Shown here: one piece after another, positions 2,541-45,458 of the stretch
How the letters are laid out: each line of letters starts with the position of its first letter
Position numbering within the stretch: position 1 is the stretch's first letter
Assembly: GCA_016867495.1 (NCBI GenBank)
Contig: VGJL01000008.1
Location: 1 to 46,210, forward strand
Reading direction: 5' to 3'
Origin: Candidatus Eisenbacteria bacterium
GTDB taxonomy: Bacteria > Eisenbacteria > RBG-16-71-46 > CAIMUX01 > VGJL01
Length of the DNA: 46,210 bases
Made by a program: the position numbers and the translations under genes
Notes under the pieces: generated by a model
What the model saw: the letters and a program-made list of their open reading frames with translations, nothing else
Told to the model about the DNA's origin: nothing
The model's database searches: none

Positions 2541-2589
2541 CGCCTTGGTGGTTTCGCCCATCCTTGACGGGCACTATTCTAGGGGTCGC

Positions 2590-3042: not shown

Positions 3043-3095
3043 TGACGGGTGCCGGGCAGGAGCCGGGCGAGAGGTAGGAGAGGAGAGGGAGGCCG

Positions 3096-15235: not shown

Positions 15236-16291
15236 TCACCCCTCCAGGAAGGGCTTCAGGCCGTCCATGCGGCGCTTGGCCGCCACGAAGTCGGGACTCG
15301 TCGCCACGGCGAGCTCGAACTTGCGGAAAGCGTCCGTGAGCCTTCCCTCGTCCATGAGCCTGACTCCCTCGCTATATGCGAGAGCAGCCTCCAGGGACTT
15401 CGTCTGGGGGCTTCCGAACTCGTGGCGGGTCTCCGTGCTCATCGCGGTCTTGGCGAGAAGCTCGTTGATGGCCATCTTCGCAGCCTGCCGCTCGACTTCG
15501 TAGAACTTGTCCAGCTTTCCCGTGACCCGGCCCGCCTTCATCACCTCGCCGGTCTCGGTGCGAACGATCCTGATGTCGAGGATCATCTCCTTCTTCATCG
15601 TGGTCAGCGAGGCGAACATGAGGCTCCCGGCTCCGAGCAGCTTTCCCGCTCGGGCGGCGGTCTCAGGATCGACCTTGCTCCCCGCCTGATGCTCCAGCTC
15701 GTCGAGGACGAACTGCAGCTTCTGGCGCTCCACGACGCGCAGGTCCCGGACCGTCTTCAGATCGGTGATGAGCATCTGCGCCAACCCCGGGCCCAGGGGA
15801 GCGATCCTCTCCGGCTGATCCATCGCGTTCACGTCGAAGTCGAAAACGGCCAGCACGGCCTCGCGCTTCTCCGCCGCTTCAACGGCCAAGAGGTCCATCT
15901 CCTTGCTGATCTCGTAGCACACTCGTAGGAACGAGGTGGGAACCGAATCGGCGTCGATCGCGATGTCGGGACAAAGCTTGTACATCTCCCGGATCTCGCG
16001 TCTCGCTTCCTCGTACGGCTCGGCTCCCTTGGCCACGTGGACCATGGCCGCGTAGAGGTGGGCCCGGGCGCGGTCCTCGGCGGACAGAGCGGGATCGGCG
16101 GCGTACGCCTGGAAGGCGAGGAGGGCTTCCGGAAGGTCGAGGTCGAGATAGTGCCGCAGACCCTTCTCCAGAGGGTCTGCGGCGGCCGATACGGGGGAGA
16201 GGGCTCCGCCGAGGGTCAAGACCAGGGCGAGCCCTGCGCCGGCAGCGATCTGCCGGCGCCTTCGGACGGCGATGTGCGAGGGGCGTATCAT
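15236..16291 (-). CDS. CsgG/FlgO-like periplasmic protein with TPR-like ends
   Basis: This 351-residue protein has an N-terminal signal peptide (about residues 13-37, ending PVSAAAD) and no lipobox cysteine. Residues ~145-270 carry a CsgG/FlgO/LpoB-type fold: LAVFDFDVNA, then LAQMLITDLKTVRDLRVVER, LQFVLDELEHQ and GKLLGAGSLMFASL. Helical TPR-like segments flank it. This fold forms outer-membrane pores or periplasmic rings (CsgG, FlgO) or activates cell-wall enzymes (LpoB); none of these can be chosen from sequence alone. It follows the transmembrane pseudokinase by 20 bp and precedes the FN3 lipoprotein with no gap. A related protein with an added cell-wall-binding insert is encoded at 43678-45294, so the pair brackets the secretion locus. 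Confidence 0.75.
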   Translation of the reverse strand: MIRPSHIAVRRRRQIAAGAGLALVLTLGGALSPVSAAADPLEKGLRHYLDLDLPEALLAFQAYAADPALSAEDRARAHLYAAMVHVAKGAEPYEEARREIREMYKLCPDIAIDADSVPTSFLRVCYEISKEMDLLAVEAAEKREAVLAVFDFDVNAMDQPERIAPLGPGLAQMLITDLKTVRDLRVVERQKLQFVLDELEHQAGSKVDPETAARAGKLLGAGSLMFASLTTMKKEMILDIRIVRTETGEVMKAGRVTGKLDKFYEVERQAAKMAINELLAKTAMSTETRHEFGSPQTKSLEAALAYSEGVRLMDEGRLTDAFRKFELAVATSPDFVAAKRRMDGLKPFLEG

Positions 16292-16311: not shown

Positions 16312-18051
16312 TCAGGATCTCCGCAGAACGAATCTGAGGCGCGCGGTCTTGCCTGGCTCGAGCGCGACGACCACGTCGCCGTCCTCGACGGGGATCCTGC
16401 GGCTGTCAAGATAAGCCAGCACCGGGCGCATCCCCGATCGTACGACGCTGACTCTCCTCTGGCCCGGGCCGACCACGATCTCCTTGGTCGTCTGCTCTCC
16501 GACCGGGCGGCCGTCGACCAGAATCGACGCAGCCACGAGGCTCGAGTCGGTATCCGTCGCCGAGACCACGAGCGTCACGCCCGGCGCGGTCCAGTCATAA
16601 GATTGCGGCTCTGCCGCGGGCGCAGCCGGTTGCGGTGACTGCCGCCGCTCAGGCGATGTCGGACGGCGGTCTTGCTGAGACTCCGCGCGGGTTGGAGTCG
16701 ATCGGTCCGCCTCGCGAAGGCTCGCGGCCGGTGGCCCCTGCGGATCTTGGAGCGGTGGGAGATTCGCCGCGACGGACTGCTCCGCCTGGGCCGGGGCCCT
16801 CGGGAGGCTCGATTCGGGCGGCGCGGGCCGCGACCACGGCTCGAGCAGCAAGAGGACGACGACCACCGTGACCACGACGGCCAGGAGAACCCAGAGCCAG
16901 AACGGGACGCCCTTCTCGCGCCTGCCGCCGCCGATTCTCCGCAGTTCTTCGGGCGCGAAGTACTTCGTCTCGGCGCCCTCGGCGGGCCGAAGCCATGTGG
17001 GGTCGCTCCGCGCGGGAGTCTGGAAGGAGACCGGCGGAGGCGTGGGCGGGAACGCCTGGGGAGCGAGGGGGCGCTCCTGCTCCATGCGTGGACTCTTCGG
17101 AACCGCGCGGAGAGGCTGGGTCTCCGAGCCGGAGGAGACTGTGGGGGCTCGCGGGATCCGGTCGGCCGGACTCTCGGAAAGTTGGGTCTTCCCCGAAGCG
17201 GGGGCCGGCCGCTTCAAAGCGGCGATCGGCTCTGCCCCTCGGATCTCCGCCTCGATTCTCTCGATCGTTTCCGCGGTCTCCGCCATCCCCGCCGTGCGAT
17301 CCGCCGGCTTCTTCTCGAGAAGCCGGGCGACAAGACCCGCCAGCGCCGGCGAGGCCCCAGGCAGGATGTCGGTGAGAGAAGGCGGTCGCTCGAATGTGTG
17401 CATGTTGCAGAGGCGCATCGGGTCCGCGTCGACGAAGGGCGGCCGCCCGGTCAGCATCTCGAAGAGGATGAGACCGACCGAATAGGCATCGGTGAGCGGC
17501 TTCGCGAATCCGGACCAGTGCTCGGGAGACATGTAGGTCGGCGGAGTGAGAAAGCCGCCGATCATGGTGAGAGCGGAGCGGTCAGGATCGGTTTGGAGGC
17601 CGAACCCGCACACGACCGCGCGATTCTCCCTGTCGATCATCACCGTCTCGGGCCGAAGATCCAGGTGAGCGAAGCCCATCGTGTGCCCGTACGCCATCGC
17701 GGATGAGATCTCCCGAGCGATGCGCAGGGAATCTGCAAGAGGCAAGGCTCCCGAAGCGAGCCGCTCTCGGAGCGTCCGCGAGTGGTCGGCCCCGACGAAG
17801 TAGGGGAGTCCGCGACTTGCGCCCTTGTCGATGATCCGATCGAGGCAGGCATGGCTGAGCCCGGACAGGAGCTCCACATTGCGGCGGAACTGATCGACCA
17901 GCGACGGAGCGGCCGCCAGACGCGGGTTCATGATCCGGACGAGGACGGCGCCGTGAACCGGGGAGGTTGCCCGGTAGAGATTGGCGACCGCCCCCCGGGC
18001 GCGCTCCTCCTCCAGGATGTATGGACCGTCGAAGGCCGGCAGAGCGCTCAT
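16312..18051 (-). CDS. Transmembrane Ser/Thr pseudokinase with C-terminal periplasmic domain
   Basis: This 579-residue protein has a cytoplasmic kinase fold (about 10-290), a proline-rich linker, one transmembrane helix (about 383-404), another low-complexity linker and a C-terminal beta domain (DGRPVGEQTTKEIVVGPGQR) like PEGA or Ig modules. Kinase-like landmarks remain (YMSPEHW for the APE motif, DAYSVGLILFEMLTG). Key catalytic positions are lost: the VAIK Lys is Arg39, HRD is HLD (129-131), the loop Lys and Asn are Arg133 and Thr136, and DFG is GFG (149-151). Catalysis is therefore unlikely, and it is better read as a scaffold or sensor. Its start overlaps the PP2C stop by four bases (ATGA), matching the kinase/phosphatase pairing (PpkA/PppA) of type VI loci. 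Confidence 0.85.
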   Translation of the reverse strand: MSALPAFDGPYILEEERARGAVANLYRATSPVHGAVLVRIMNPRLAAAPSLVDQFRRNVELLSGLSHACLDRIIDKGASRGLPYFVGADHSRTLRERLASGALPLADSLRIAREISSAMAYGHTMGFAHLDLRPETVMIDRENRAVVCGFGLQTDPDRSALTMIGGFLTPPTYMSPEHWSGFAKPLTDAYSVGLILFEMLTGRPPFVDADPMRLCNMHTFERPPSLTDILPGASPALAGLVARLLEKKPADRTAGMAETAETIERIEAEIRGAEPIAALKRPAPASGKTQLSESPADRIPRAPTVSSGSETQPLRAVPKSPRMEQERPLAPQAFPPTPPPVSFQTPARSDPTWLRPAEGAETKYFAPEELRRIGGGRREKGVPFWLWVLLAVVVTVVVVLLLLEPWSRPAPPESSLPRAPAQAEQSVAANLPPLQDPQGPPAASLREADRSTPTRAESQQDRRPTSPERRQSPQPAAPAAEPQSYDWTAPGVTLVVSATDTDSSLVAASILVDGRPVGEQTTKEIVVGPGQRRVSVVRSGMRPVLAYLDSRRIPVEDGDVVVALEPGKTARLRFVLRRS

Positions 18052-18953
18052 CGGGATCCCTCCTCTTCCACCCCGGGATCGCGCCCGAGCAGACGGCGGG
18101 AGAGACGTCGCAGAAGGCTGGATGAAGCATGTCCCGCGGCTGCCGCCCCGGCCGTGTCCGAGGCGCTATCTGTCGCCACCCTCGGCGCCGCCTCGCCGCC
18201 GCGAGGGAGAGGACCTTCGATGACCCGGCCTGCCACGACCGAGACGTTGTCGCGCCCTCCCGCATCGAGGGCGCGCCGGATGCAGGCCGCCACGATCTGC
18301 TCCGCGTCGATCCCGTCCGACAGGATCACGCGGATCTCTTCCGCCTTGAGCTCGTCGGTCAGACCGTCGCTGCAGAGGAGCCAGATGTCCCCCCGCACTG
18401 CGGGTCCGCTTCCGTAATCGACATCGATCTCCGACTGCGTGCCGATCGCTCGGATGAGAATTCCATGGACCTGCCGCGCTTCGGCAGGGTCGAGGTCGAT
18501 CCCCATCTGCTCGAGCATCCTGAGGCGCGTGTGATCCTCGCTGACCTGATGGAGTTCGCCGTCTCTGAAGAGATAGAGGCGGCTGTCGCCGACCGTGACG
18601 AATCGCGCCTCGCCCTCGCCGAGATGCAGCGCGACCAGCGTGCAGCCCATCCCATAGAAGTCCGTCTCGGCGCGCGCCTTCGCGTTGACGGCGCGGTTCG
18701 CCTCTCGCGCGGCCGTGATCATGGCCTGAAGGGGATCGGAGTCGGTCCCGGGCTGCGCGGCGGAGGCGCGACCCTCCTCGAAGGCCGCGATGAAGGTCTC
18801 GACGGCGATCTGGCTGGCCGTCTCGCCCGCCCGGTGGCCTCCCATTCCGTCGCAGAGGATAGCAAGCCCCTTCTCCGGCAGGGCGAGGACGGAGTCCTCG
18901 TTGTTGGTCCGGACCCTCCCCGGATCTGTTCCGAACGCCCACTCGACACGCAT
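18048..18953 (-). CDS. PP2C-family (PppA-like) protein Ser/Thr phosphatase
   Basis: This ~301-residue cytoplasmic metal-dependent phosphatase has all PP2C motifs, counted from the ATG at 18953: NNED (17-20), CDGMGGH (34-40), VGDSRLYLF (121-129), CSDGLTD (194-200) and GRDNVSVV (233-240). The metal-binding Asp residues are intact, so it should be active. A longer TTG start at 19004 is possible, but the ATG begins the family's usual VEWAFGTDPGRVR start and has a GAGGAT upstream. The C-terminal ~50 residues are an Ala/Arg-rich tail. In type VI loci PppA reverses phosphorylation of the FHA protein. Here the phosphatase gene diverges from a gene for an FHA protein and overlaps that of a pseudokinase. 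Confidence 0.93.
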   Translation of the reverse strand: MRVEWAFGTDPGRVRTNNEDSVLALPEKGLAILCDGMGGHRAGETASQIAVETFIAAFEEGRASAAQPGTDSDPLQAMITAAREANRAVNAKARAETDFYGMGCTLVALHLGEGEARFVTVGDSRLYLFRDGELHQVSEDHTRLRMLEQMGIDLDPAEARQVHGILIRAIGTQSEIDVDYGSGPAVRGDIWLLCSDGLTDELKAEEIRVILSDGIDAEQIVAACIRRALDAGGRDNVSVVAGRVIEGPLPRGGEAAPRVATDSASDTAGAAAAGHASSSLLRRLSRRLLGRDPGVEEEGSR

Positions 18954-19053
18954 CGATCCGATCCTCGCGCCCTTGCCTGCGCCGGGACCTTGCACTAGTC
19001 TCAAGCGGCTCCGCAGCCGTCCTGGCCGGGGCCTGCGGCTTCACGGAGGCTGG
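18954..19053. promoter_or_regulatory. Divergent intergenic region between the PP2C and FHA genes
   Basis: This 100-bp gap separates two outward-reading starts, so it should hold promoters for both. No convincing -35/-10 pair or operator was found. A GGAGG (19045-19049) five bases before the FHA ATG is a good ribosome site. Confidence 0.4.
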
Positions 19054-20934: not shown

Positions 20935-21453
20935 TCAGTCTACGAGGACCTCGCAGTCACCGGCGACCTCCATCTTGAGCGTTTCGCCCGCCTTGAACGT
21001 CGGCGGCGATCCCTTGATGAAGAGTCCGATCAGGGCGACCGGGATCAGGATGACGGAGAGGACCCGGTGCCCCTTCCCCCTTCTCGTGAAGACGGGCCTG
21101 AGCGGGATCTCCGAGCCGTCGACGGCCAGAGCCTTTACCTCCTTGATCTCCGCCTTGCCGGCCTTTCCGAGCCTGCCCGAGGCCTCGAACTTCCCGATCT
21201 CGAGCGTCACCCTCGCGCCCGACTTGAGGACCTCCTTGCCCGCGACCAGCAGGGGCTCGGCGATCTCCCCCCGGATCGCGCCGCCCTCGGGCATCGTCGC
21301 AATCCGGACCCGCTCCGGGAAGCGGACCGTGACCGGCCGCCCTTCCCGCGCGATGACGCGGTCGGCGGCAGCGCATGGGGTGACCCAGAGAAGCAGGAGC
21401 GTCCAAGCGAGGAGCCACGCGGTTGTCCGCACGATCGGCGATCCGAGCGTCAT
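20935..21453 (-). CDS. Small exported protein of unknown function in the TssM-like operon
   Basis: This 172-residue protein is not assigned to a named family. An N-terminal signal peptide covers about residues 8-32 (LLAWTLLLLWVTPCAAAD). The mature part is beta-rich with short Gly-containing strands (GGAIRGEIAEPLLVAGKEVL, SGARVTLEIGKFEASGRLG). A second hydrophobic stretch (VLSVILIPVALIGLFIKG) precedes a final strand pair ending GDCEVLVD. The ATG at 21453 is chosen because GAGGAGG lies about ten bases upstream, overlapping the stop of the GTPase gene; the frame is open much further but only as antisense-like sequence. Placed directly after the TssM-like gene, it could be a periplasmic accessory of the membrane complex, which is inference. 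Confidence 0.7.
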   Translation of the reverse strand: MTLGSPIVRTTAWLLAWTLLLLWVTPCAAADRVIAREGRPVTVRFPERVRIATMPEGGAIRGEIAEPLLVAGKEVLKSGARVTLEIGKFEASGRLGKAGKAEIKEVKALAVDGSEIPLRPVFTRRGKGHRVLSVILIPVALIGLFIKGSPPTFKAGETLKMEVAGDCEVLVD

Positions 21454-21467
21454 GATCCAGAACCTCC

Positions 21468-23867
21468 TCACTGCAGGACCGGCATCTTCTCCTCGATTCC
21501 CAGGATCTTGAACTCGACGCGGAAAGGCCCATCGGGGGTCTCGAAGATCGCGTCTCCGGCCGCGCCGGCCTTCGCGGCATCGAAGAGCGAGAGCCGGCCC
21601 TCCTTGCGCCACTCGCTGATGGTCCTGATCTCCGCGGCGCAGTCGGCGTTGGAACTGAGATAGAGGACGAACGGCTGGCCGAGCTTCCACTGAAACTCCC
21701 CCGGGCGACCCTGCTCGTACTCGCTCGCGCGGGGGAGGCCCGTGGCGTCTCCCAGGTGAAAGTGGAACCCCTGGCGTGGCTGCCTCGTGATGTCCAGGCG
21801 GAGCGTGACGCCGGGGGCCTGGGTCCACTGATCGAGCTCCTTGAGGTAGTCGCGGGCTTTCTGGAGGTTCTCCGCGGAGCCCAGGTTCTTCTGGAGCCGC
21901 TCGCGCAGGTTCTTGGGAAGCGTGACGAGGTTGAACTGGGGATCGCGGGCGGCGCTCTTCTCGATCCATTCGGCGAAGGGCTCATCGCCGGCGAACCCTC
22001 CCCCGCCGGCGCCCGCCGCGCCGCCGGCACCCCCGCCCAGGCGGGGGAGGGAGAGGAACGAAGCCAGCGTGGGGAAGATCGTCTTCGCCTGCTGCCGGAG
22101 CGTCTGGATCGCGGCCTCCGACGTGGGAGGGTCCGGTAGAGCGAGGGCGGCCAGGGCCTCCTCGACGATCTTCTTCAGTTGCCTGACGCGAGCCCTGTTG
22201 AAGTCCTGCATCGAGGTCTGGTCGGAGAAGTAGGCGTCGCACGCCTTCTTGATGGTCTCGAGCGGGCCGGGAATGAGATAGGTGCTGAGCGAGAGGTCCT
22301 GAAGCGCGGACTGGATTGGGAAGTAGAGCGGGCTCCCGATTTGATCGCGGATCGCTTGCCCCTCCCTGCGACGGATCGGATCGAGGATCCAGCGCACGCG
22401 CCTGTCGATCTCCTTCGCCGCGCCGCCGCGCGCGACCATGGAGTTGATCTCCTCGATGCGGCTCTCGTCCCATCTGAGCGCGAGCTGATCGGCGAGGCGC
22501 CTCAGATCGTCACGCGCGCGGGGGCTTTTGCGCTGCATCCTCTCCAGGTCGGCGAGAGCGCTCGTGACGGCGGTCGTATCGAACGCGGCATTGACGCTCG
22601 GGAATGTCTCGTTGTAGGCGACCGCCTGCGCGTAGACGTACCGTTCCAGGGACGCCCGTCCGACCTGGGGAGAGAGGAAGCGAAGCCAGAGGAGCGGGAA
22701 CCGGTCGAAGCTGCGGTAGGCCCGCACGGTTTCCTGGATCGTCGCGCCCCGGCGAGGAGCGGTCTGCCCCGCCCGCCAGAGGATCGCCCCGCTCCAGAGG
22801 CTCACGAGCGCGGCTCCGATCGCGCACGAGATGAGGGCCCGCCGCGCGCCGCGGCGCCTGCCCTCGATCCTCAGGCGGTCGCCAAGCCGCAAGACCGCCC
22901 AGCGGAGCGGCTCGCGCACCCCGACCGGCTTCAAGACGTCCGGGGGACGCTCTCCGCCCCCCTCCTCCACGATCGCTCCGCCGGTCGCGCTGACGAAGAA
23001 GATCTGGAATCCCCGGTCCATGTCGCGCAGAACGGGTATCAGCTCGCGGAGCCGGTTCAGAATCGCCCGCACGCTGTCTCGCCACTTCGGATTGCCCTGA
23101 AACTCCGGCTGGCTCACCACTTCCTCGATCAGATTCGCGACCGACAGATCGCGCGCGCGATCGAGGGACCGAGGGATCAGGACCGTCTGTGTGTCATCGC
23201 GAAACCCTTCGATCCTGTCCGCCTTGGTGATGACGAGCGAGACCGGAATCCTCCTCCTCCCCGCGTTTCCCGTCGCACGGGCGAGGAGGCTTCGATACGA
23301 CGAGATCTGCGATTGGGCGTCGGCTTCCGACGCGAGCGTCGCGGGGTCGATGAGCAGGAGCATCCCCTCCGCCGCCTCGAGCCACTCGTTGACCTGCCGC
23401 TTGCGTCCCGCCTCCTCGTAGATCGAGACGTTCGCGCCCGGATAGTCGAGGATCGCCAGACGCAGCCTCTGGCCCCATCCCCCCGCCTCGAATGTGAAGG
23501 GTCGCACCGAAGTCGTGGGCGGAGGGAAGCGAGGAGTCTGCGGGGTCTCCGCTCTCGCCGGAGCCACGAGGAACCTGCGCGTCGTGCCGCGGAGCGATTC
23601 GATCACCGTCAAGATCTCCGCCGCCGTCGCGTCGTCATAGGCGCGGAAGACGGGATCCGAACCTTCCTTGCAGACCTCGTGGAGCATCGCGAGATAGACG
23701 GTCTTGCCGGCGCCCTGATGCCCGACGATTCCGAGGCCCGGGAGAGAGGGTTCGGGGGATGCCTCCGGCGCGCCGCCCGAAGGAGCCGCCTTCTTCGCCA
23801 GCTTGAGGGCCCCCTTGGCCGCTCCCGGCACCCTGGGTTTCCGGGTGAGCAGGGAGAGGAGGCTCAT
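21468..23867 (-). CDS. TssM-like GTPase with single transmembrane helix and periplasmic domain
   Basis: This 799-residue protein has a cytoplasmic P-loop NTPase domain: G1 GIVGHQGAGKT (46-56), G3-like LDYPG (140-144), G4-like TKAD (214-217) and G5-like VSAT (292-295). These mark a TRAFAC-type GTPase. One transmembrane helix follows at about 343-364, then ~435 mostly helical residues and a beta-rich C-terminus (GFHFHLGDATG, FQWKLGQPFVLYLSS). The order NTPase, helix, long periplasmic helical region, C-terminal beta domain matches the core of TssM/IcmF, but the protein lacks TssM's two N-terminal helices and is about two-thirds of its length. It overlaps the tail-anchored neighbour by ATGA and sits beside tssK. 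The TssM role is inferred from layout and context, not residue identity. Confidence 0.6.
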   Translation of the reverse strand: MSLLSLLTRKPRVPGAAKGALKLAKKAAPSGGAPEASPEPSLPGLGIVGHQGAGKTVYLAMLHEVCKEGSDPVFRAYDDATAAEILTVIESLRGTTRRFLVAPARAETPQTPRFPPPTTSVRPFTFEAGGWGQRLRLAILDYPGANVSIYEEAGRKRQVNEWLEAAEGMLLLIDPATLASEADAQSQISSYRSLLARATGNAGRRRIPVSLVITKADRIEGFRDDTQTVLIPRSLDRARDLSVANLIEEVVSQPEFQGNPKWRDSVRAILNRLRELIPVLRDMDRGFQIFFVSATGGAIVEEGGGERPPDVLKPVGVREPLRWAVLRLGDRLRIEGRRRGARRALISCAIGAALVSLWSGAILWRAGQTAPRRGATIQETVRAYRSFDRFPLLWLRFLSPQVGRASLERYVYAQAVAYNETFPSVNAAFDTTAVTSALADLERMQRKSPRARDDLRRLADQLALRWDESRIEEINSMVARGGAAKEIDRRVRWILDPIRRREGQAIRDQIGSPLYFPIQSALQDLSLSTYLIPGPLETIKKACDAYFSDQTSMQDFNRARVRQLKKIVEEALAALALPDPPTSEAAIQTLRQQAKTIFPTLASFLSLPRLGGGAGGAAGAGGGGFAGDEPFAEWIEKSAARDPQFNLVTLPKNLRERLQKNLGSAENLQKARDYLKELDQWTQAPGVTLRLDITRQPRQGFHFHLGDATGLPRASEYEQGRPGEFQWKLGQPFVLYLSSNADCAAEIRTISEWRKEGRLSLFDAAKAGAAGDAIFETPDGPFRVEFKILGIEEKMPVLQ

Positions 23868-24796
23868 CTCGATCCCTCCCGCAGGATCTCGGAGAGGCGG
23901 CCCCTCTGCGCCGCGGCGTCCGAGCGCATCCTGCCGGCAAGGTCGGCGTGAATCAGATTCCAGATCACCAGCACCGCGAGCAGGCCGATGATCGACATGA
24001 CCGTGTAGATCGTGTAGACGCTCCCACGGCCGCTCTCGCGCCGAACGGGAGCGGCCTCGGCCTGCTCCCGCCGGAGATCCTTCCTCGCGATCTCTATGCC
24101 GTGCTCGACCGACTCCCGCCATCCTTCCCTCTCCACGTAGCCGAGACGCAGGAGGAAGTAGTCGTGGATCGGATTGGCCATCGCCATGCGACGGAAGAAG
24201 CCCGAGTTGCGGAGGTTCTGCTCCAGCGTGCGGGGGCGGAGGTGGAGCGGCGTGCCCGGGTACAGGAGTCTGCGCCGCATCATCTGGAACAGGCACTCGC
24301 TCGGCGCGGATCGATCGACCTGCTTCTCGGGCAGGAAGTCGGGCCACGCGTCGCTCGGGTCCTGGTTGCAGATCGCCGCCATGTGCTCGAGGAGAAGCCA
24401 TCGCAGGACGTGCGCCTCGCCGAGGCTCTTCGGCTCGAAGAGGACCGGGACCAGGTGGGCGCGGATGAACTCTCCGTCGGTCTTCCTCTCGCGCCGCCTC
24501 CCCGCGCAGAAGTTGTAGGCCAGACGGTGGGCGCGGCCTCGGTTCGCCTGGTACTCGAAGTCGATCGAGAGCAGGTGCGAGGCAAGATAGCGGAGCCCCG
24601 AGCGGGTCATCTCGCTCCCGGAGACGGCCTGGAAGAGGATCCTGTCCGCGTCGGCGAGTCGGTCGTCGGTGTCGAGGCCCGAGAAGAGCGACAGGACCCC
24701 GCGGTAGCGTTCCTCGAAGAGATCTGCCCGGAAACGTCCTCCGCCCGACTCGTACTCGTCGACGCTGGCGTAGAGGGCGTCGATCAGCGAGGGCAT
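23864..24796 (-). CDS. Tail-anchored helical protein, TssL-like candidate
   Basis: This 310-residue protein has no signal peptide. A long cytoplasmic, mainly helical region (1-255) rich in Arg, Glu and aromatic residues is followed by one transmembrane helix (about 260-283) and a 27-residue extracytoplasmic tail. This is the topology of TssL/DotU, a cytoplasmic helical bundle with a C-terminal anchor. I do not see the DotU sequence signatures, so the assignment rests on topology, on a four-base overlap with the TssM-like gene, and on position right after tssK; tssK-tssL-tssM is a standard order. If it is not TssL, it is an unknown inner-membrane partner of the GTPase. Confidence 0.45.
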   Translation of the reverse strand: MPSLIDALYASVDEYESGGGRFRADLFEERYRGVLSLFSGLDTDDRLADADRILFQAVSGSEMTRSGLRYLASHLLSIDFEYQANRGRAHRLAYNFCAGRRRERKTDGEFIRAHLVPVLFEPKSLGEAHVLRWLLLEHMAAICNQDPSDAWPDFLPEKQVDRSAPSECLFQMMRRRLLYPGTPLHLRPRTLEQNLRNSGFFRRMAMANPIHDYFLLRLGYVEREGWRESVEHGIEIARKDLRREQAEAAPVRRESGRGSVYTIYTVMSIIGLLAVLVIWNLIHADLAGRMRSDAAAQRGRLSEILREGSR

Positions 24797-24809: not shown

Positions 24810-26258
24810 TCAGACGCCGTAGATCCGCAGATCGGTCGGCGGCGCGTTCTCCACGGGCGTGAAGTCGACGGCGCCCGAGATCAGCGTCAGCTCGCGCAGG
24901 CGCGGTTCCGGGACCTCTCTGTCGGGCTCCGCCGGATAGAGGCAGACGATACGGTTCTTCTCCGTGCGCGCGTCGACCTGGACCTGCTCGGCGAAGATCC
25001 ATGTCTTTCGATCGTTCACGCCGAAGCGGATGACGAAGCGCTCGCGCTCCTCCGGCGTCCCCTGGGCGCAGCGCATGATGACGAGGATCCTCTTCACGTC
25101 GCCGCGCGCCTTGATGCCGCCGACTTCCAGGTACTGCCGGCTCTCGTCCTTGCGCAGCCTGCGATGTTTGTATTCGATCGGCCAGTACCGTACGCCCCGG
25201 TACTCGTAGAACTCCTCCAGCGTATCGAGCTCGGGGATCTTCGCCTGGTCGGCGAGGAACCGCACGACGCCGTCCAGATCGTCCAGGAACCGCATGTGCG
25301 TCCCGATGGCCGAGCGCAGATCGTCCAGGGCGATCGGGCCATCGAGGAAGTCGCGGAGCGAATCGAAGAAGACCGGATCCCCTGACGGGAGCTTCTCGCG
25401 AAGGATGAGGTCGTTGATGACCCGGTTGCGCGCTCCCGGGTAGATCTGGAACAGCTCGAGCGCGGAACGCAGGACTGCGCGCACGGGGCGCAGCGCCGCC
25501 AGCGGGGGGTCCGGGTAGGGCGGAGTCGGGAGATTCTCCCTCGCGCTCCCCATGCCTATGGCGAGCTGCTGCAGGATCGCGAAGAAGGGATCGCCGGGGA
25601 TCCCCTCTCCATCGAGCCGCGCCTTCATGGCCGCCGCCCCCGCGACCGCGCGCGCCCCGCAGGCCCGCGCCCGGGCTCGGAAGGCCTCCACGGCGGCGGC
25701 GAAGGCCCTCGCCGATCCGATCTGCGCGCAGGGCGGGATGTAGTCATCCGAGACACGCGCGGCGCGATCGGCGACCATGATCTCGGCGATCCTGATAGAC
25801 GAGGGCCGCCCGATCCCCGGGTCCGTCCCGAGCAGGAGGGCGACGCGGGGCAAGCGGTACGGGAGCCGCGGCGGATCCTCGTCGGGGTCGGGCGTCCCGA
25901 CCGGATCGCTTCCCTCGATCGCCTCGATCGCCACGGGGATCCGAGCCTCCACCGCTGGATCCAGAGAGATCGCGGCGCTGATCGCCTTGCCCGCTTCTTT
26001 CCGGGTCGCGTCGACGATGAGGAGACGCCCATCGGGGGTGAGTGCGACGCAGGACTCCAGCGTCACCGTGAGGCTCGATCCCGAGATCTCGCACGAGATC
26101 GAAGGCTCTCCACCGGGACAGATCCCCGGAGAGTGTCCGAGGTAGCGGCGGGTCAGATCGAGCAGCTCGTCGGCTCTTCCCTCGACAAGATCGAGGTGCG
26201 CGCTGCGGAGCAGCATCCCGTCCTGCCAGTGGACCCTCGCCAGGGTGGGCCTATCCAT
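24810..26258 (-). CDS. tssK: TssK, baseplate-to-membrane-complex connector
   Basis: This 482-residue cytoplasmic protein starts ARVHWQDGMLLRSAHLDLVE. TssK proteins share a Trp-x-x-Gly-Met-x-L-x-x-x-His motif there, in the shell domain that binds TssF/TssG. A central DYIPPCAQIGSARAF (about residues 182-196) matches the conserved IPPC segment. The C-terminal ~100 residues (YLEVGGIKARGDVKRILVIM and after) correspond in position to the TssK head that contacts TssL/TssM, but carry an unusual region before them (YRGVRYWPIEYKHRRL). Length is close to the usual ~450. The ATG overlaps the pseudokinase-SUMF1 stop by eight bases, and the TssL-like gene follows after 13 bp. Confidence 0.8.
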   Translation of the reverse strand: MDRPTLARVHWQDGMLLRSAHLDLVEGRADELLDLTRRYLGHSPGICPGGEPSISCEISGSSLTVTLESCVALTPDGRLLIVDATRKEAGKAISAAISLDPAVEARIPVAIEAIEGSDPVGTPDPDEDPPRLPYRLPRVALLLGTDPGIGRPSSIRIAEIMVADRAARVSDDYIPPCAQIGSARAFAAAVEAFRARARACGARAVAGAAAMKARLDGEGIPGDPFFAILQQLAIGMGSARENLPTPPYPDPPLAALRPVRAVLRSALELFQIYPGARNRVINDLILREKLPSGDPVFFDSLRDFLDGPIALDDLRSAIGTHMRFLDDLDGVVRFLADQAKIPELDTLEEFYEYRGVRYWPIEYKHRRLRKDESRQYLEVGGIKARGDVKRILVIMRCAQGTPEERERFVIRFGVNDRKTWIFAEQVQVDARTEKNRIVCLYPAEPDREVPEPRLRELTLISGAVDFTPVENAPPTDLRIYGV

Positions 26259-28131
26259 GGGTCTCCTCTCCGGCCGCCTTCTCGGGCGCTTCCGCGGCCG
26301 CGCTGCCCGGGCTCATCGCTGGCGGGACGCCCGCTCCAGCCTCCGGGGTTTCGCTCCCTCCCTCCGCGAAGGCGGAGAGCATCCAATCCGGGGCGCGGCT
26401 CTTTCGGATGGAGAGCCTCATGCCTCGGGTCTCCGAGCGAATGTCCCCGGCGAGGCCCGCGCGGAACGTCACGCTGACTCCCGCCGCCGATGACGCGTAG
26501 GAACCGCCCCTCATACTGCGTCTCGGGGAGGGGCGCGTCACCCCTTCCGTAAGCTCTTCCGCCGACGCCGCCCCCGCGCTGATCATCTCGTAGATCTCCT
26601 TCACGAACAGGTCGCGGCAGGTCTCGCTCACGTTGCCGGCCATATCGTAGAGGCCGTAGCCGTTCGGCGAAAGGAGGCCGACCGGGTGGGGGAGGCCCCC
26701 CGAGCCGTCCAGATACCAGGCCCTCTTGGGGTCGGGTTCGTCCCCCCAGGGGTAGCGCGTCAGCGCGGCGCCGCGACAGGCATACTCCCACTCAGCCTCG
26801 CTCGGCAGCTCGCATCCCTGCGCCGCGGCGTAGGCGTCCATCTCGGCCGCCGTCAGGAACGACACCGGGATCGCCTCGCCCTTCGAGCGCGAAATCGCAT
26901 CGTTGACCGACGCCAGCCGCCTCTCGAACTCCGTCTGATCGTGCACTCCCCGCGCGGCCTGGGGAGTCGTCATGAAACGGCTGGGGAGAAGGGAGGTCTT
27001 CTGTGAGCAGAAGTCGCAGCTTCGATCGTGCCCCTGGTGGAAGCCCGCGAACATCTCCCACGTGACCGGGTACTTGTCGATCAGGAAGGGCTCGACCTCG
27101 ACCGTGACCGGCGGCCCTTCCTCCGGGCGGCCTTCCGGCGTTCCCATCGCGAATGAACCGGCCGGGATCAGGACCATCACGCCCCCGTCGGCGCTTCGCT
27201 TGAACTCCCGCAGTCCCTGCGCGTTCTTGCCGAGGGGGAGCAGCCGCGGTCCGGCCATCTCCTCCAGGGCCGCCGCCTCCGCAGCCGGGGTCGCGAGGAT
27301 CTCCTCCATCAGGTCGGGGGCCGGCCCTCCGTCGGCCGTTACGCGGCCGAGGGTCGCGTCCAGCGACCTCAGCAGATCGGTCAGGCTCGACATCCGGTTG
27401 CGCTGATCCCGCGCCAGCAGGCGCCGCACCAGGGGCCGGGCCGCTGGCGGGATCCTCTCCACCTCGACATCCTTCGTGCGGGTCGAGGCGATCACGGACA
27501 GCGAGCTTCCACGGAACGGGGGAGATCCGCAGAGCATCTCGTAGTAGAGGATCCCGAGCATGAAGAGGATGTCGGATCGAGTCGGCGGGTCCTGCTCCAT
27601 TTGCGGGGCGAGGTAGGGAGCGTACTCCAGCACGATCGGGACCTTCCCGTTAGGAAAGAGCGCGTGGAGATAGTGGTCGTCGATCTTGGCCCCGTCCTCG
27701 CGGATCGCGATCGATTCGGGAGAGAGCAGGGGCAGAACCCCTCCCTGGTTGTCGATCGCGAAACATGCCTCCGCCAGATCACGGAGATACCCGGCCGCGG
27801 CGATCTGGGGCAGACTGCCCGCATCGAGCTTCTCCCGGAGGGTCGGTGACACGACCTCCGTGATCACGACGACATCGCCCGCGGGGAGCCGCTTGAAGTC
27901 GAAGACGGAGACGAGCCCGCGCGAAAAGGGCCGGGACGCCGCCGCGAGACGATCGGTCTGCGGCGCCCACTCGGCGGAGACGATCTTGATCCCGATCGGG
28001 ATGCCGCTCTCGGTGTGCCCGTCGTATTGCTCGTAGAATCCCGACCAGCGCAGGTAGCGGTCGGCGACATACTCGCCGAAAGGCTTCTTCCCGAGCGGGA
28101 AACGAGGCTCGTGTCTGGTCGTTCCTTCCAT
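26251..28131 (-). CDS. Pseudokinase-SUMF1 (formylglycine-generating-enzyme-like) fusion protein
   Basis: This 626-residue soluble protein has a degenerate Ser/Thr kinase fold at residues ~15-265. It keeps a VAIK-like Lys (IGIKI, K49) and a C-lobe helix (SDILFMLGILYYEMLCG), but HRD-x-K-x-x-N is replaced by GGVLPLLSPESI and no DFG is seen, so it should be inactive. Residues ~315-578 form a SUMF1/FGE-sulfatase domain: MVLIPAGSFAMG, PVTWEMFAGF, CELPSEAEWEYACRG, YDMAGNVSE, RRSMRGGSY. The copper-binding active-site cysteines of true FGEs, expected after RGGSY, are absent (ASSAAGVSV), so this is probably a binding module. It lies between clpV and tssK with tight spacing, implying a role in assembly or control of the secretion system. 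Confidence 0.85.
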   Translation of the reverse strand: MEGTTRHEPRFPLGKKPFGEYVADRYLRWSGFYEQYDGHTESGIPIGIKIVSAEWAPQTDRLAAASRPFSRGLVSVFDFKRLPAGDVVVITEVVSPTLREKLDAGSLPQIAAAGYLRDLAEACFAIDNQGGVLPLLSPESIAIREDGAKIDDHYLHALFPNGKVPIVLEYAPYLAPQMEQDPPTRSDILFMLGILYYEMLCGSPPFRGSSLSVIASTRTKDVEVERIPPAARPLVRRLLARDQRNRMSSLTDLLRSLDATLGRVTADGGPAPDLMEEILATPAAEAAALEEMAGPRLLPLGKNAQGLREFKRSADGGVMVLIPAGSFAMGTPEGRPEEGPPVTVEVEPFLIDKYPVTWEMFAGFHQGHDRSCDFCSQKTSLLPSRFMTTPQAARGVHDQTEFERRLASVNDAISRSKGEAIPVSFLTAAEMDAYAAAQGCELPSEAEWEYACRGAALTRYPWGDEPDPKRAWYLDGSGGLPHPVGLLSPNGYGLYDMAGNVSETCRDLFVKEIYEMISAGAASAEELTEGVTRPSPRRSMRGGSYASSAAGVSVTFRAGLAGDIRSETRGMRLSIRKSRAPDWMLSAFAEGGSETPEAGAGVPPAMSPGSAAAEAPEKAAGEETHG

Positions 28132-28142
28132 GCGCCGGTCCG

Positions 28143-30533
28143 CTACTCGATCCGCACCTGGATCGCGCCCGAGGGGGCGTCCACCCGGACGCTCCGGCCC
28201 TCCACGCTGCTCTCGCCGACGATGAGCGATGCCAGAGGGTTCATGATTTTCTGGTCGATCACTCTCCGCACCGGCCGCGCCCCCATTTCCGGATCGAACC
28301 CCTCGTTCGCCAGGACCTCGCGAGCCGCCGGCGTGACCGACAGGCTCATCTTCTGTTCGGCCAGAATCGCCTCCACATCGCGCAATTGGAGGTCCACGAT
28401 CCGGGCGACTTGCTCCTTGGTGAACTGATGGAAGACCAGGAGGCTCTCGAACCTGTTGATCAGCTCCGGCCGCAACCCCATGCGAATCAGCATGTCGCGG
28501 AGGACCTTCTGGTCCACAGGCAGGCCTTGTGAGTCCTGCTCGGAGATCCAGCTTCCGGCCAGGTTGGTCGTGAGCATGACGACGGTGTTGCTGAAGTCGA
28601 CGGTGCGGCTCTGGCCGTCCGTCAGCCTTCCGTCGTCGAGGACCTGCAGGAGCGGGTCGAGCACTTGGGGATGGGCCTTCTCGACCTCATCGAAGAGGAC
28701 GACGGAGTACGGCCGCCTCAGAACCGAGTTCGTCAGGGCGCCTCCCGCCTCGTAGCCGACATACCCGGGCGGCGGCCCGATCAGGCGCGAGACGGTGTGC
28801 TCTCCCTTGTACTCGCTCATGTCGATGCGGACCATCGCCTTCTCGTCGTTGAAGAGGAAGAGGGCGAGACTCTTGGCGAGGAACGTCTTTCCCGTCCCCG
28901 TCGGGCCCAGGAGCATGAAAGCGCCGATCGGGAGGTTGCTTCGCTTCAGCCCCGCGCGTCCCCTGCGAACGGCGTCGGCGACGGCGCGCACCGCCTCTTC
29001 CTGGCCGACGACGCGGCTGTTCAGGGTCTCCTCGATCTTGAGCAGCTTCTCCCGCTCGTCCCCGAGCATTCGATGGACGGGGATTCCCGTGCGGATGCTG
29101 ACGCGGCGGGCGATGACGCCCGCGTCGACCGTCTTCGCGATCGTCCCGGCCGAGGCGAGCCAGGCCTTGGGGCCCCCCTCGGTTCCCCCCTCCGCCCTCC
29201 TGGGGATCAATCCCCTTTCCTCGAGGCCGTTTCGCAACAGATCGAGCCTTGCCTTGACGGCGGGATCGTCGCGCTTCTCGATCAGCTCGCGCGCCTCCGT
29301 GAGGCTGTCGACGAGGATCCTCACGTCCGATGCCGCCTCGTCGAGGAGATCGACCGCCTTGTCGGGGAGGTAACGATCGGTGATGTAGCGCTTGGAGAGG
29401 TTGATGGAGGAGTCGAACGCCTCCGTCGTGAAGGCGACGCCATGGTGCTTCTCGTATCTCTCACGCAGCCCCTCCAGGATCCGCATCGACGTCGCCTTGT
29501 CCGGCTCCTCGATCTGGATCGGCACGAAGCGGCGCGCGAAGGCGGCATCCGCCTCGAAGTGCTTCCGGTACTCGCCCGTGGTCGTCGCGCCGATCACCCG
29601 CAGCTCCCCGCGCGCGAGCGCCGGCTTCAGGATGTTCGCCGCATCGATTCCGCCCCCGCCGCCCCCGGCGCCGAGCAAGGTGTGGATCTCGTCCACGAAG
29701 AGGACCGCCTCGGATCCGGCCGCCTCCATCTCGGTCAGCAGCTTCTTGAAGCGCTCCTCGAACTCCCCCTTGTACTTCGCCCCCGCGACCATCGCGGGAA
29801 GGTCGAGCTCGAGGATGCGCGCGCTTCTCAGGAAGGCGGGCACGGTCCCCGCGACGATCGCCTGCGCGAGCCCTTCGGCCACGGCCGTCTTGCCCACCCC
29901 GGGCTCCCCGACCAGGACGGCGTTGTTCTTCCTTCTTCGCGCGAGGACCTCGATCGTCTGCTGGATCTCGCGCTCCCGCCCGATGACCGGATCGAGGATG
30001 CCGGCGCGCGCCTTCGCCGTCAGGTCGGCGCAGAAACCGATCGCCTGCCCCGCCGCGACCCCTGTCGCGCCGCCGCCCCCCGCCACCGCTTCCGCCTGCT
30101 TCGTCTTCCTGAGAACCTCGAGGACCTTTGCGCGACGGAGCTGCAGGGCCTTGCGCAGGGGCTCGGGCAGCCCGCCGTCGGGGGACATCAGGGCGATCAG
30201 GAGGTGGACCTCGTCCACCTGGCGGTCCTCCAGCATCTCCTTCTCGGTCTCCGCCAGCTCGAGAACCGACTTGAAGGCCGGCGACGGCGCGGGATCGAAG
30301 ACAGCCGATGTGGAGCGGGGCAGCTCGCTCAATGCGTCCTCGACGAGCCCCCGGAACGGCCCGACCTCCCGGCCAAGGCCCAGGAGGATCCGGGTGGCGG
30401 CCCCTTCCTCGGGGACGAGGAGGCTGAAGAGGAGATGGAGGGGAAGGATCTGCGGGTGGGAGTGCTCTCTTGCGATCTCCCTCCCTCGGTCAATCGCCTC
30501 GCTCGCGGAAAGGGTCATTCCGAGATCTGCCAT
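28143..30533 (-). CDS. tssH: ClpV/TssH, sheath-disassembly AAA+ ATPase
   Basis: This 796-residue Clp/Hsp100 protein has an N-terminal Clp-N double repeat (about 1-145). AAA1 carries Walker A GEPGVGKT (209-216) and a Walker B-type VLFVDEIHTLLG. The middle domain is very short (KRDDPAVKARLDLLRNGLEE) compared with ClpB. AAA2 carries Walker A GPTGTGKT (543-550) and LFDEVEKAHP, followed by the C-terminal D2-small domain. Position opposite tssB and beside tssK identifies it as ClpV, which binds contracted TssB/TssC sheath and unfolds it for reuse. A general ClpB is the alternative, but the short middle domain and context disfavour it. It is the first gene of the leftward block. Confidence 0.9.
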   Translation of the reverse strand: MADLGMTLSASEAIDRGREIAREHSHPQILPLHLLFSLLVPEEGAATRILLGLGREVGPFRGLVEDALSELPRSTSAVFDPAPSPAFKSVLELAETEKEMLEDRQVDEVHLLIALMSPDGGLPEPLRKALQLRRAKVLEVLRKTKQAEAVAGGGGATGVAAGQAIGFCADLTAKARAGILDPVIGREREIQQTIEVLARRRKNNAVLVGEPGVGKTAVAEGLAQAIVAGTVPAFLRSARILELDLPAMVAGAKYKGEFEERFKKLLTEMEAAGSEAVLFVDEIHTLLGAGGGGGGIDAANILKPALARGELRVIGATTTGEYRKHFEADAAFARRFVPIQIEEPDKATSMRILEGLRERYEKHHGVAFTTEAFDSSINLSKRYITDRYLPDKAVDLLDEAASDVRILVDSLTEARELIEKRDDPAVKARLDLLRNGLEERGLIPRRAEGGTEGGPKAWLASAGTIAKTVDAGVIARRVSIRTGIPVHRMLGDEREKLLKIEETLNSRVVGQEEAVRAVADAVRRGRAGLKRSNLPIGAFMLLGPTGTGKTFLAKSLALFLFNDEKAMVRIDMSEYKGEHTVSRLIGPPPGYVGYEAGGALTNSVLRRPYSVVLFDEVEKAHPQVLDPLLQVLDDGRLTDGQSRTVDFSNTVVMLTTNLAGSWISEQDSQGLPVDQKVLRDMLIRMGLRPELINRFESLLVFHQFTKEQVARIVDLQLRDVEAILAEQKMSLSVTPAAREVLANEGFDPEMGARPVRRVIDQKIMNPLASLIVGESSVEGRSVRVDAPSGAIQVRIE

Positions 30534-30795
30534 GGCGGTCCCCCCACTTCCGGTTATCCAGCGGTCCGAACGAAAAAAAACGGCATCCGGGACCAGACGC
30601 GGCCGATCGGATCCTAAGAGGCGTCAGCCACGCGATCAAGCCGGGACTGGATCCGCGCATCAAGGGCTCTTGCCACGCTGTAGCAGACGGTGTTACGGTG
30701 CGGCCAGTCCAAAATGCACCGATCACGGGGTCAAGGTCAAGGTTTGCCCCGGCAGCGTCGCGACCCCGTTTCGAGATCTAACGAGGAGGTGTGTC
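30534..30795. promoter_or_regulatory. Divergent control region between clpV and tssB
   Basis: This 262-bp non-coding gap drives both halves of the locus. Seen in it: an A8 run (30575-30582), a tandem GGTCAAGGTCAA (30729-30740), an eight-base inverted repeat in the tssB leader, and a strong Shine-Dalgarno (GAGGAGGT, 30783-30790) before the tssB GTG. TTGCCA near 30670 followed 17 bases later by TTACGG is a weak sigma70-like candidate for the rightward block. No sigma54 GG-N10-GC element was convincing. Confidence 0.5.
30726..30769 (+). repeat. Inverted repeat in the tssB leader
   Basis: ACGGGGTC (30726-30733) is perfectly complementary to GACCCCGT (30762-30769) across a 28-base spacer. It ends 13 bases before the tssB ribosome site. 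It could form an mRNA hairpin or serve as a dyad operator. Confidence 0.5.
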
Positions 30796-31245
30796 GTGCC
30801 GAAGCCCCGTTTCATCGGCGCCGAGCACGTTCGGGAGACGGACCTGACGATGGGGGTCGAGATCCTCGACACCAACAAGACCCTCTTCGTCGCCGCGCTG
30901 AACGAACGGGCCGGGGAGGATCCCCAGCCGATCAGCTGTAGGACGATCGAAGAGGTCTTCTCGACCTTCCAGCCCAAGATGGAAGTCGCCGTCACCGACG
31001 AGGAGGGTAACAGCGCGGACGAGACGCTCGCCTTCAAGCAGGTGGCCGATTTCGCTCCCGAAGAGGTGATCGCGCAGTCTCCATCGCTCAAGGCCCTCCA
31101 TCAGGAATTGCTCCTCCTAAAGGACATGCTCCAGCAGCTTCGTAAGAACACGACCCTTCGCAAGACGATCGATTCGCCCAGCCGCGAGGTCCTGATTCGC
31201 GGCATCCGCGCGGCGCGCGACGCGTCGGGCGGCGGCAAGTCCTAG
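30796..31245 (+). CDS. tssB: TssB (VipA), small sheath subunit
   Basis: This 149-residue protein starts at a GTG six bases after ACGAGGAGGT; the frame is open much further upstream, but only antisense to clpV. TssB features include a strand-forming N-terminus (MGVEILDTNKTLFVAALNER), an acidic centre (MEVAVTDEEGNSADETLAF), then FAPEEVIAQSPSLKALHQEL. In TssB proteins the segment DFSPD-x-(V/I)-x-x-Q-(V/I)-P-x-L-x-x-L has the same pattern. With TssC it forms the contractile sheath. It is slightly shorter than proteobacterial TssB (~165 residues). tssC follows after 17 bp. Confidence 0.9.
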   Translation: MPKPRFIGAEHVRETDLTMGVEILDTNKTLFVAALNERAGEDPQPISCRTIEEVFSTFQPKMEVAVTDEEGNSADETLAFKQVADFAPEEVIAQSPSLKALHQELLLLKDMLQQLRKNTTLRKTIDSPSREVLIRGIRAARDASGGGKS

Positions 31246-31262: not shown

Positions 31263-32693
31263 GTGGAACGACCGGAAGAATCGGCCCGCCCGCAGCCACC
31301 CGAAACCAAGGAAGCGGCCCCCGCGCCTGCGGCACCTGAAGCTTATGAGGCGACACTTGCCGGGTTGGGCGCCCCAAAGGCCGCGGGAAACGCGGCGGGA
31401 GCGATGGAGTGGCTCGGCAAGATCGTCCCCGCGGCTTCGGTGGAAGGAACCAAGCTGCCCGGCATCGACCTGCTCGATCCCACCAAGAAGAAGCAGTTCG
31501 AGGATGTGACGCGAAACAGGCTCTATGCCGACACGCGGAATCTCCTCGTGGCGCGCTTGCGGGTGTGGGAGGACGCGCTCGCCGCGAGCGAGGATCTCGA
31601 ATCGCTCATCGAGAAGACCCAGCAGAGGCTCGAGAAGCTCGAGTCGGTGCTGAACGGCAACCTGAAATCGGTCTACGAGAAGCTGAGGCCGATGGAGTTG
31701 ACCTACCGGGCGATCGACGGCTTCTTCGGCAACGCCCAGGTCGAGGCGGGCGACAAGATCGAGGTCAGCTTCATCAACGCCTCGGCGGAGCAGCTGCTCG
31801 ACCCGGACGATCGCTCCGTCTTCGACGAGGGGCTCGCCGCCTCGATCCAGACCCGTTTCAGGGACTGGACCCTGAAGGAGACCTTCGCCAACCTGGTCAT
31901 CCCGGGATGGGTGGGCAACGTCCAGGCCCTCGACCGTCTTGGAATCCTCGGATCCCAGAACAAGGTGCAGGTCTACACCGACATCGACAATTTCGAGAGC
32001 TTCAAGCAGTTGCAGGACAACCTGGACGTCAAGGACCTGCAGGGGATCAAGGGGGCCGATCTCCACAAGCAGTACCTGGTTCTCACAGGCAACTGGGTCC
32101 TGGGGCGCAAGGCCCACAAGTTCGAGGATGAGGACCTCTGGCTTCCGCCGTCGGCCCTTCTCTCGGGAGTCGTCTACCGCGTGGACGAGTCGCTCGGCCT
32201 CCAGGAGGCCGCGGCCGGATACCGCAAAGGGAAGGTCATGGGCGGCAAGGGGGTCCGCTATCGCGTGGATCGCCCCACTGCCGGCAAGATGATGTTCAAC
32301 TACGGCGTCAATCCGGTGGTCGATTGGGACGGCTATCCGATCGTCATGGGGGACGCCAACCTCTGCACGAAGGAAGGGCTCGACAGCTACCCGAGGATCC
32401 GCACGGAAGACTGGATTCTAAAGAACGTGTGCCACTACCTGAACAAGCAGGCCTACCAGAACATCACGGACGTTTTCAAGTCGGCCGTGAAGAGGGATCT
32501 CCACAGCTTCCTCGCCCAGTGCAAGGGTCCCGATCGAGAGGTGAGGGGATTCGAGATCCAGGTCGTCGCGACGCCCGAGCAGGAGCGGAGGCACGAGGTG
32601 GACGTCATCCTCCGCATCGACTTCCAGAAGTCGGTCCGACAGTTCAACGTGAAGGTCAAGGAGGCGGATGCCCAGGTCGCGGAGGCATCCTAG
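31263..32693 (+). CDS. tssC: TssC (VipB), large sheath subunit
   Basis: This 476-residue protein, close to the usual ~490, opens with a Pro/Ala/Glu-rich disordered tail (~1-45). TssC-type features follow: DARNLLVARL-like TRNLLVARLRVWEDALAAS (about 91-109), a central region with LLGRKAHKFED-like WVLGRKAHKF, and the C-terminal part GLDSYPRIRTEDWILKNVCH with NKQAYQNITDVFKSAVKRDL, where TssC proteins carry the sheath-interlocking strands. The GTG at 31263 follows GGGAGG. Sequence is divergent from proteobacterial TssC, notably in the middle domain, so the assignment relies on C-terminal motifs, length and adjacency to tssB. Confidence 0.88.
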   Translation: MERPEESARPQPPETKEAAPAPAAPEAYEATLAGLGAPKAAGNAAGAMEWLGKIVPAASVEGTKLPGIDLLDPTKKKQFEDVTRNRLYADTRNLLVARLRVWEDALAASEDLESLIEKTQQRLEKLESVLNGNLKSVYEKLRPMELTYRAIDGFFGNAQVEAGDKIEVSFINASAEQLLDPDDRSVFDEGLAASIQTRFRDWTLKETFANLVIPGWVGNVQALDRLGILGSQNKVQVYTDIDNFESFKQLQDNLDVKDLQGIKGADLHKQYLVLTGNWVLGRKAHKFEDEDLWLPPSALLSGVVYRVDESLGLQEAAAGYRKGKVMGGKGVRYRVDRPTAGKMMFNYGVNPVVDWDGYPIVMGDANLCTKEGLDSYPRIRTEDWILKNVCHYLNKQAYQNITDVFKSAVKRDLHSFLAQCKGPDREVRGFEIQVVATPEQERRHEVDVILRIDFQKSVRQFNVKVKEADAQVAEAS

Positions 32694-32726: not shown

Positions 32727-33122
32727 ATGGCACAAGAACCAATTCTCAAGATCGATGGGACGGAGGTCCCGAACATCTTGTCGGTCGAGTACAGCCTGCG
32801 GGCCGAGGCCGACCGCGACGGCCGTCCAACGCGGAAGATGTTCTTCGACGGCATCGTCGTGCGGAGGATCATGGACGACAAGACGATACTGTGCGATTGG
32901 GCCAAGAGCCCCAAGGAGGAGAACCGCAAGGGCGGCGAGGTCCAGTTCTTCAGCGATACGGGGACGGCCATGAAGAAGCTGGAGTTCAAGGGCGCCTACC
33001 TCAGGGACTACCGCGTCGACTTCGATGAGCGCGGCGATCATGTGGTGGAAGTCGCCCACGTCCAGCCGGAAGTCATCCTGGTCGGCGGCGTCGAAGTCAA
33101 CTTCAACTGGCCGGACAAGTAG
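32727..33122 (+). CDS. tssD: TssD/Hcp-family tube protein 1
   Basis: This 131-residue small beta protein matches the Bacteroidetes-type TssD pattern: an opening strand with a short x-VEYSLRAEADRDGRPTR segment, a strand around TILCDWA, then GGEVQFFSDTGTAMKKLEF and KGAYLRDYRVDFD, ending in a VEVNFNW strand. Hcp proteins stack as hexameric rings forming the inner tube and may carry effectors in the lumen. No signal peptide. It is followed after 12 bp by a second, related gene. AGAGGAAA precedes the ATG. Confidence 0.8.
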   Translation: MAQEPILKIDGTEVPNILSVEYSLRAEADRDGRPTRKMFFDGIVVRRIMDDKTILCDWAKSPKEENRKGGEVQFFSDTGTAMKKLEFKGAYLRDYRVDFDERGDHVVEVAHVQPEVILVGGVEVNFNWPDK

Positions 33123-45294: not shown

Positions 45295-45458
45295 CGTCGT
45301 GGTCTCTTTCTCGGCCGCGGTTTTGAGGAGGGACCCGAGCCCTCTCTCCCGATCGCGACGGGGTCCCGAACGGGCCCAGACTAGGCGACCCGGCCGCCCC
45401 GGGCAATCTCTCATACCGCGGACCGGTCCTTGAAGCTCACGCTCCAGCGCCCAGGCGC

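Follow-up and report, generated by a model that had tools for sequence, protein, structure and literature searches.

The locus described here raises the question of which protein anchors a T6SS to the cell envelope when the gene in the tssM position does not encode a recognisable TssM. Two forms of T6SS membrane complex that share no homology are known, TssJLM and TssNQOPR. The window, which is the whole 46,210-nucleotide stretch of a Candidatus Eisenbacteria contig (VGJL01000008.1) that was analysed, carries in this position a gene for a 799-aa protein with a GTPase domain, a single membrane helix and a long periplasmic part, described in a preliminary reading as a minimal replacement for TssM. 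The product of this gene is, in our view, probably the central component of a T6SS membrane complex that departs from the canonical type.

T6SS genes of the window

The plus strand encodes TssB (30793..31245, PF05591), TssC (31263..32693, PF17541), two Hcp/TssD proteins (32727..33122 and 33135..33563, both PF17642), VgrG (33584..35596, Pfam/NCBIfam), a TssE with an N-terminal PDZ domain and a gp25 match below cut-off (36605..37456), and TssF (37440..39164) and TssG (39185..40264), both above the Pfam cut-off. The TssC and Hcp models PF17541 and PF17642 are of what we take to be the Bacteroidota type. A fusion homologous to the PDZ-containing TssE was located in another Eisenbacteria genome, G017 (L005:8660-9544), and the stand-alone TssE of a further one, G007 (L016:11769-12128), was without the PDZ extension. 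Between vgrG and tssE is a short HerA_C-like ATPase (35646-36605) that matched profile positions 13-225 of 502 only and had no homologue among the other loci compared.

On the minus strand are a ClpV/ClpB-type ATPase (28143..30533, Pfam/NCBIfam) and, next to it, a protein with kinase-like (sub-cut-off) and FGE-sulfatase domains (26251..28131), which has a homologue beside ClpV in G017 (L129:1-1178) and may belong to a pathway of control by phosphorylation. These are followed by a divergent form of the baseplate protein TssK (24810..26258), weak by a single model and matched to canonical TssK by profile-profile comparison with a probability of 98.6 and an E-value of 1.1e-15, and then by a 310-aa protein termed L' (23864..24796), the 799-aa protein (21468..23867) and an exported protein of about 170 aa directly downstream of it (20935..21453), with a signal peptide recognised by eye. 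Judged by its predicted products, the cluster encodes a T6SS that is complete but for the canonical membrane proteins, and its core is divergent.

The genome of the window, estimated to be 100% complete, gave no match to PF09850 (DotU/TssL), which matched strongly in canonical relatives, and no match to PF06761 (IcmF-related), for which an E. coli control was positive. The only hit to PF14331 (IcmF-related_N) in the genome was the 799-aa protein itself, below cut-off. No TssJ was recognised, the membrane-complex family models applied being those of TssL and TssM. L', an all-helical protein, is assigned to tssL by position only. Its topology in a structure model (pLDDT 66, pTM 0.60) and by hydropathy was TssL-like, with a helical domain followed by a single C-terminal membrane helix, as in the partner that occupies the TssL slot of the canonical TssJ-TssL-TssM complex. 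Unlike canonical TssL, however, L' had no detectable homology to that family. It is not put forward as a TssL homologue, since there was no profile match to TssL and a Foldseek comparison with the PDB gave no match with an E-value below 1, and a PDB sequence search with the L' profile yielded no significant match. There was no Pfam match of the TssN/Q/O/P/R kind in L', the 799-aa protein or the exported protein.

A DO-GTPase2 membrane protein in the tssM position

The 799-aa gene is read on the minus strand, which the preliminary description left unstated while giving correct coordinates, from its start at 23867 to its stop at 21468, with a 4-base overlap between this start and the stop of the L' gene upstream. 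The GC content by codon position (0.67/0.50/0.87) had the pattern of a real gene, and a plus-strand reading of the same interval was dropped as no gene was present there. The TRAFAC-type G motifs claimed in the preliminary description were present at the expected residues, namely the G1/Walker A motif GHQGAGKT (23700..23723, residues 49-56), G3 DYPG (23436..23447, residues 141-144), G4 TKAD (23217..23228, residues 214-217) and G5 VSAT (22983..22994, residues 292-295), all on the minus strand. In an alignment of 35 homologues the residues G49, H50, G54, K55, D141, Y142, G144, K215, D217 and G296 were invariant, including the K and D of G4, so the motifs are not a product of chance.

The domain containing these motifs belongs to the DO-GTPase2 family. 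It matched the Pfam model (PF19993) with 55.1 bits relative to a cut-off of 27, and the model was matched by all 35 homologues at E<=0.1. A profile of the T6SS GTPase domain found its best other DO-GTPases with E-values of 3.6e-12 to 7e-10 and canonical TssM with 0.01-0.3, which places the domain nearer the DO-GTPases of conflict systems than the NTPase of TssM. The TKAD motif makes GTP rather than ATP plausible as the nucleotide, as had been proposed; canonical TssM also has a related G4, TKCD.

A single membrane helix was predicted from hydropathy at residues 345-363 (22779..22835, minus strand), Arg-rich towards the GTPase side, and about 430 residues stand beyond it. The full structure model was poor (pLDDT 38.6, pTM 0.27), and in this low-confidence model the GTPase is followed by a helix-rich stretch and then by beta-strands at 687-789, within a C-terminal beta region of residues 687-799 (21471..21809, minus strand). 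Hydropathy and this model bore out the order of NTPase, membrane helix, helical part and C-terminal beta domain given in the preliminary description. PDB sequence searches with the 799-aa protein and with the 35-row GTPase profile gave no significant match.

Conservation and distribution at T6SS loci

Homologues of the GTPase were found in this slot in two further genomes of Eisenbacteria and also in a second phylum. The set from tssB to the exported protein was located on one contig in G017, while in G007 it was split, with tssK, L', the GTPase, a GAP1-like gene and the exported protein on one contig and the sheath and baseplate genes on another (L004, L016). The TssC of G007 was only 25% identical to that of the window, yet its membrane module was homologous. 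In the second phylum the order tssG-tssK-L'-GTPase-exported protein was conserved, with tssK-L'-GTPase inside a T6SS cluster at 13 of the 15 loci read, and the exported protein of about 170 aa adjoined the GTPase in nearly every homologous locus. In two second-phylum genomes (G462 and G498) the GTPase was located away from the T6SS core.

Three of 47 Eisenbacteria genomes carried the GTPase (the window's genome G000, G007 and G017), and these were exactly the genomes with a TssC related to that of the window. Canonical TssM was present in eleven other genomes of the 47, an exclusion that is not significant by itself with three GTPase genomes. The second phylum was represented by 133 genomes, of which 65 had the GTPase and 65 the matching TssC type. 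Both occurred together in 63 and each occurred alone in 2, these being draft genomes (Fisher P 7e-33, ignoring shared ancestry). GTPase-type genomes seldom carried canonical TssM, which was found in 12 of the 133 genomes and shared with the GTPase in 1 (avoidance P 0.0045, the genomes not being phylogenetically independent). The genomes compared were mostly draft MAGs. One genome, G467, contained a canonical TssM cluster (L082) and a GTPase-type cluster (L127) and is a natural test of their coexistence.

Two genome samples, one of 385 and one of 387, gave no GTPase match outside both phyla, and viral contigs and plasmids contained no homologue. A scan of genome contigs gave no match to the GTPase alignment and a match to TssC in G017 only.

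Two readings compete most strongly with a structural role in a non-canonical complex: the GTPase may regulate the T6SS and not anchor it, or it may be a TssM that has diverged greatly. The first, in which a membrane GTPase sets off or gates T6SS action and L' together with other envelope proteins forms the anchor, appears fairly unlikely. It is in keeping with the proposal, in the part of PMC7159879 on DO-GTPases, that modules of DO-GTPase and GAP1 act as switches, with the location of the GTPase apart from the core cluster in G462 and G498, and with the presence near the window's cluster of two Ser/Thr protein kinases (16312..18051 and 40751..42430, minus strand) and a PP2C phosphatase (18048..19004, minus strand). 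However, genomes with the TssC type and without the GTPase were almost absent, the position of the gene after tssK-L' was fixed, the periplasmic part is large, and the family models detected no other TssM candidate.

Comparison with TssM

The GTPase protein resembles canonical TssM in its slot after tssK and in its layout of a cytosolic P-loop NTPase, a membrane helix, a long periplasmic part and a C-terminal beta region. It differs in having one membrane helix rather than three, in being shorter, in its DO-GTPase2 domain and in the lack of any IcmF model match above cut-off. Canonical TssM proteins from the same phyla had, by hydropathy, a pair of helices at about residues 7-57 plus another at about residue 450, so the absence of the first two TssM helices noted in the preliminary description holds for the 799-aa protein. 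The claimed deficit of about 400 residues was somewhat smaller at roughly 310-390, most of the aligned canonical TssM frames being 1107-1186 aa long.

Whether these differences reflect a shortened TssM was evaluated with family models and profile comparisons. PF14331 scored the 799-aa protein at 19-21 bits, below its cut-off of 25 and over about 60 of 259 positions, and scored canonical relatives at 220-294 bits; 17 of the 35 GTPase homologues weakly matched this model. PF06744 (IcmF_C) was not found in G000, G007 or G017 and was present in eleven other Eisenbacteria genomes. The GTPase domain and the TssM NTPase were aligned by hhalign with an E-value of 3.6e-5, and a notable feature in common is TKxDxxxGF. 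The last approximately 100 residues scored 29.4 relative to the TssM C-terminus, 60 shuffles reaching at most 20.9, and with wider alignments the score dropped to 24.3 compared to at most 20.3 for other families. A resemblance of this part to the TssM C-terminus is therefore suggestive, and a common origin of the GTPase and C-terminal domains with those of TssM is possible from these comparisons. The helical periplasmic middle had no profile similarity to TssM.

A divergent TssM, meaning a true descendant or ancestor of the family without the first two helices and about 350 residues and with homologous NTPase and C-terminal domains, would account for the shared gene slot, for the two domain matches, which are colinear, and for the weak IcmF-related_N similarity in about half of the homologues. 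We judge it to be unlikely. All IcmF models remained below cut-off, the GTPase domain was closer to DO-GTPase2, some likeness among P-loop GTPases is to be expected anyway, the middle region was without similarity, and the C-terminal signal was weak and became smaller with more sequences. The description of the protein as a minimal, ancestral or streamlined TssM was not supported on these grounds. That TssM has been replaced stands as a positional and functional inference, given the occupied tssM slot and the absence of a detectable tssM or tssL, and is not supported in the sense of a reduced TssM. A separate true tssM elsewhere in the genome, one half of what the preliminary description named as refuting its reading, was searched for with the family models and was not found.

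Origin of the GTPase module

In its text on DO-GTPases, PMC7159879 proposes that they act as switches in conflict systems, where a GAP1 gene is as a rule located downstream, and it makes no link to the T6SS there. The T6SS proteins share with these systems the DO-GTPase2 domain, membrane association and, at some loci, a GAP1-N2-like gene downstream. They differ from the systems covered in that text in being located inside a complete T6SS cluster with no recognised variable effector module, and in their long periplasmic part and C-terminal beta region. Genes with sub-cut-off similarity to GAP1-N2 or GAP1-M were located directly 3' of the T6SS GTPase in four genomes (G007, G343, G386 and G496), and there was no GAP1-like gene in the window. 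A membrane DO-GTPase outside any T6SS was identified in G174 (L126:8075-10798). Its 907-aa frame has a similar layout with helical and C-terminal parts, and it may be related to the protein from which the T6SS module was drawn.

Recruitment is the more economical origin because the GTPase domain is nearer the DO-GTPases, GAP1-like neighbours occur and a membrane DO-GTPase of this layout exists outside the T6SS. The module was most likely derived from membrane-bound DO-GTPase systems rather than from a shortened TssM. The conflict-system character of the DO-GTPase2 family, as treated in that part of PMC7159879, and the occurrence of membrane DO-GTPases without a T6SS could also indicate a passenger system lying beside the T6SS by chance, a reading that is highly improbable and was dropped on account of the co-occurrence of the GTPase with the TssC type, the operon order common to two phyla and the avoidance of canonical TssM.

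Envelope partners and proposed membrane complex

Several genes flanking the cluster encode predicted envelope proteins, all on the minus strand. A CsgG-like protein (15236..16291) is encoded next to one of the kinases, and its homologue was located beside a kinase gene at second-phylum T6SS loci; G007 also has a homologue. On the other side of the cluster are a putative outer-membrane beta-barrel protein (42519..43676), its barrel predicted from the sequence pattern, and a protein with TPR, PG_binding_1 and CsgG-like parts, the last below cut-off (43678..45462). Homologues of the putative outer-membrane protein were present at nine second-phylum T6SS loci and in G007, homologues of the TPR protein occurred at the loci carrying them, and no outer-membrane protein of this type was seen at the canonical T6SS loci searched. 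The products of these three flanking genes are candidates for the part of the complex at the outer membrane.

Two further observations were made in the window. Beside the CsgG-like gene is one for a large protein (11735-15235), predicted to be secreted, in which fibronectin-like and kelch-like repeats were recognised by eye; it had no homologue among the other loci compared. Two consecutive multiheme cytochrome c genes with CxxCH motifs (2545-4493), NrfHA-like by eye, are unrelated to the T6SS.

The sequence evidence is best read as pointing to a further kind of T6SS membrane complex, the third besides TssJLM and TssNQOPR, that would be built on a DO-GTPase. A membrane complex without homology to the canonical one has a precedent in the TssNQOPR complex of the Bacteroidota T6SSiii, which functions without canonical TssJLM and is likewise encoded after tssG-tssK (PMC10781749). 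It differs in topology, with five membrane helices in TssN and N-terminal helices in TssQ, TssO and TssP, while two single-helix proteins are encoded here, one of them with a GTPase domain; the paper on TssNQOPR mentions no GTPase (PMC10781749).

Beyond the position, the co-occurrence, the avoidance of TssM and the identity of the domain, which sequence and genomes show, we infer how docking, gating and the connection to the envelope may occur. L' and the GTPase would form an inner-membrane platform and do the job of TssL and TssM, with TssK docking the baseplate onto it. The nucleotide state of the GTPase would gate baseplate recruitment or firing and may be influenced by the conserved kinases and, at some loci, by the GAP1-like partner. 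The periplasmic part would reach the outer membrane via the exported protein of about 170 aa, the CsgG-like proteins and the putative outer-membrane protein. There are about equal grounds for accepting and for doubting the fullest form of this proposal, in which a membrane DO-GTPase of conflict-system origin became both the anchor and a GTP-controlled gate of a third, independently assembled trans-envelope complex and the CsgG-like and outer-membrane partners replace TssJ.

No link between DO-GTPases and the T6SS was found in the open-access literature searched. The recurrence of the arrangement in over 60 second-phylum genomes suggests a means of T6SS anchoring that is so far undescribed, and surveys that require TssJ, TssL and TssM would overlook T6SSs of this type. 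If the proposal is true, a GTPase-based third form in about half a phylum would mean that contractile machines gained an attachment to the envelope on several occasions, and the conflict systems of DO-GTPases would be linked to the T6SS. A nucleotide switch of this kind would also bear on what sets off baseplate docking or firing.
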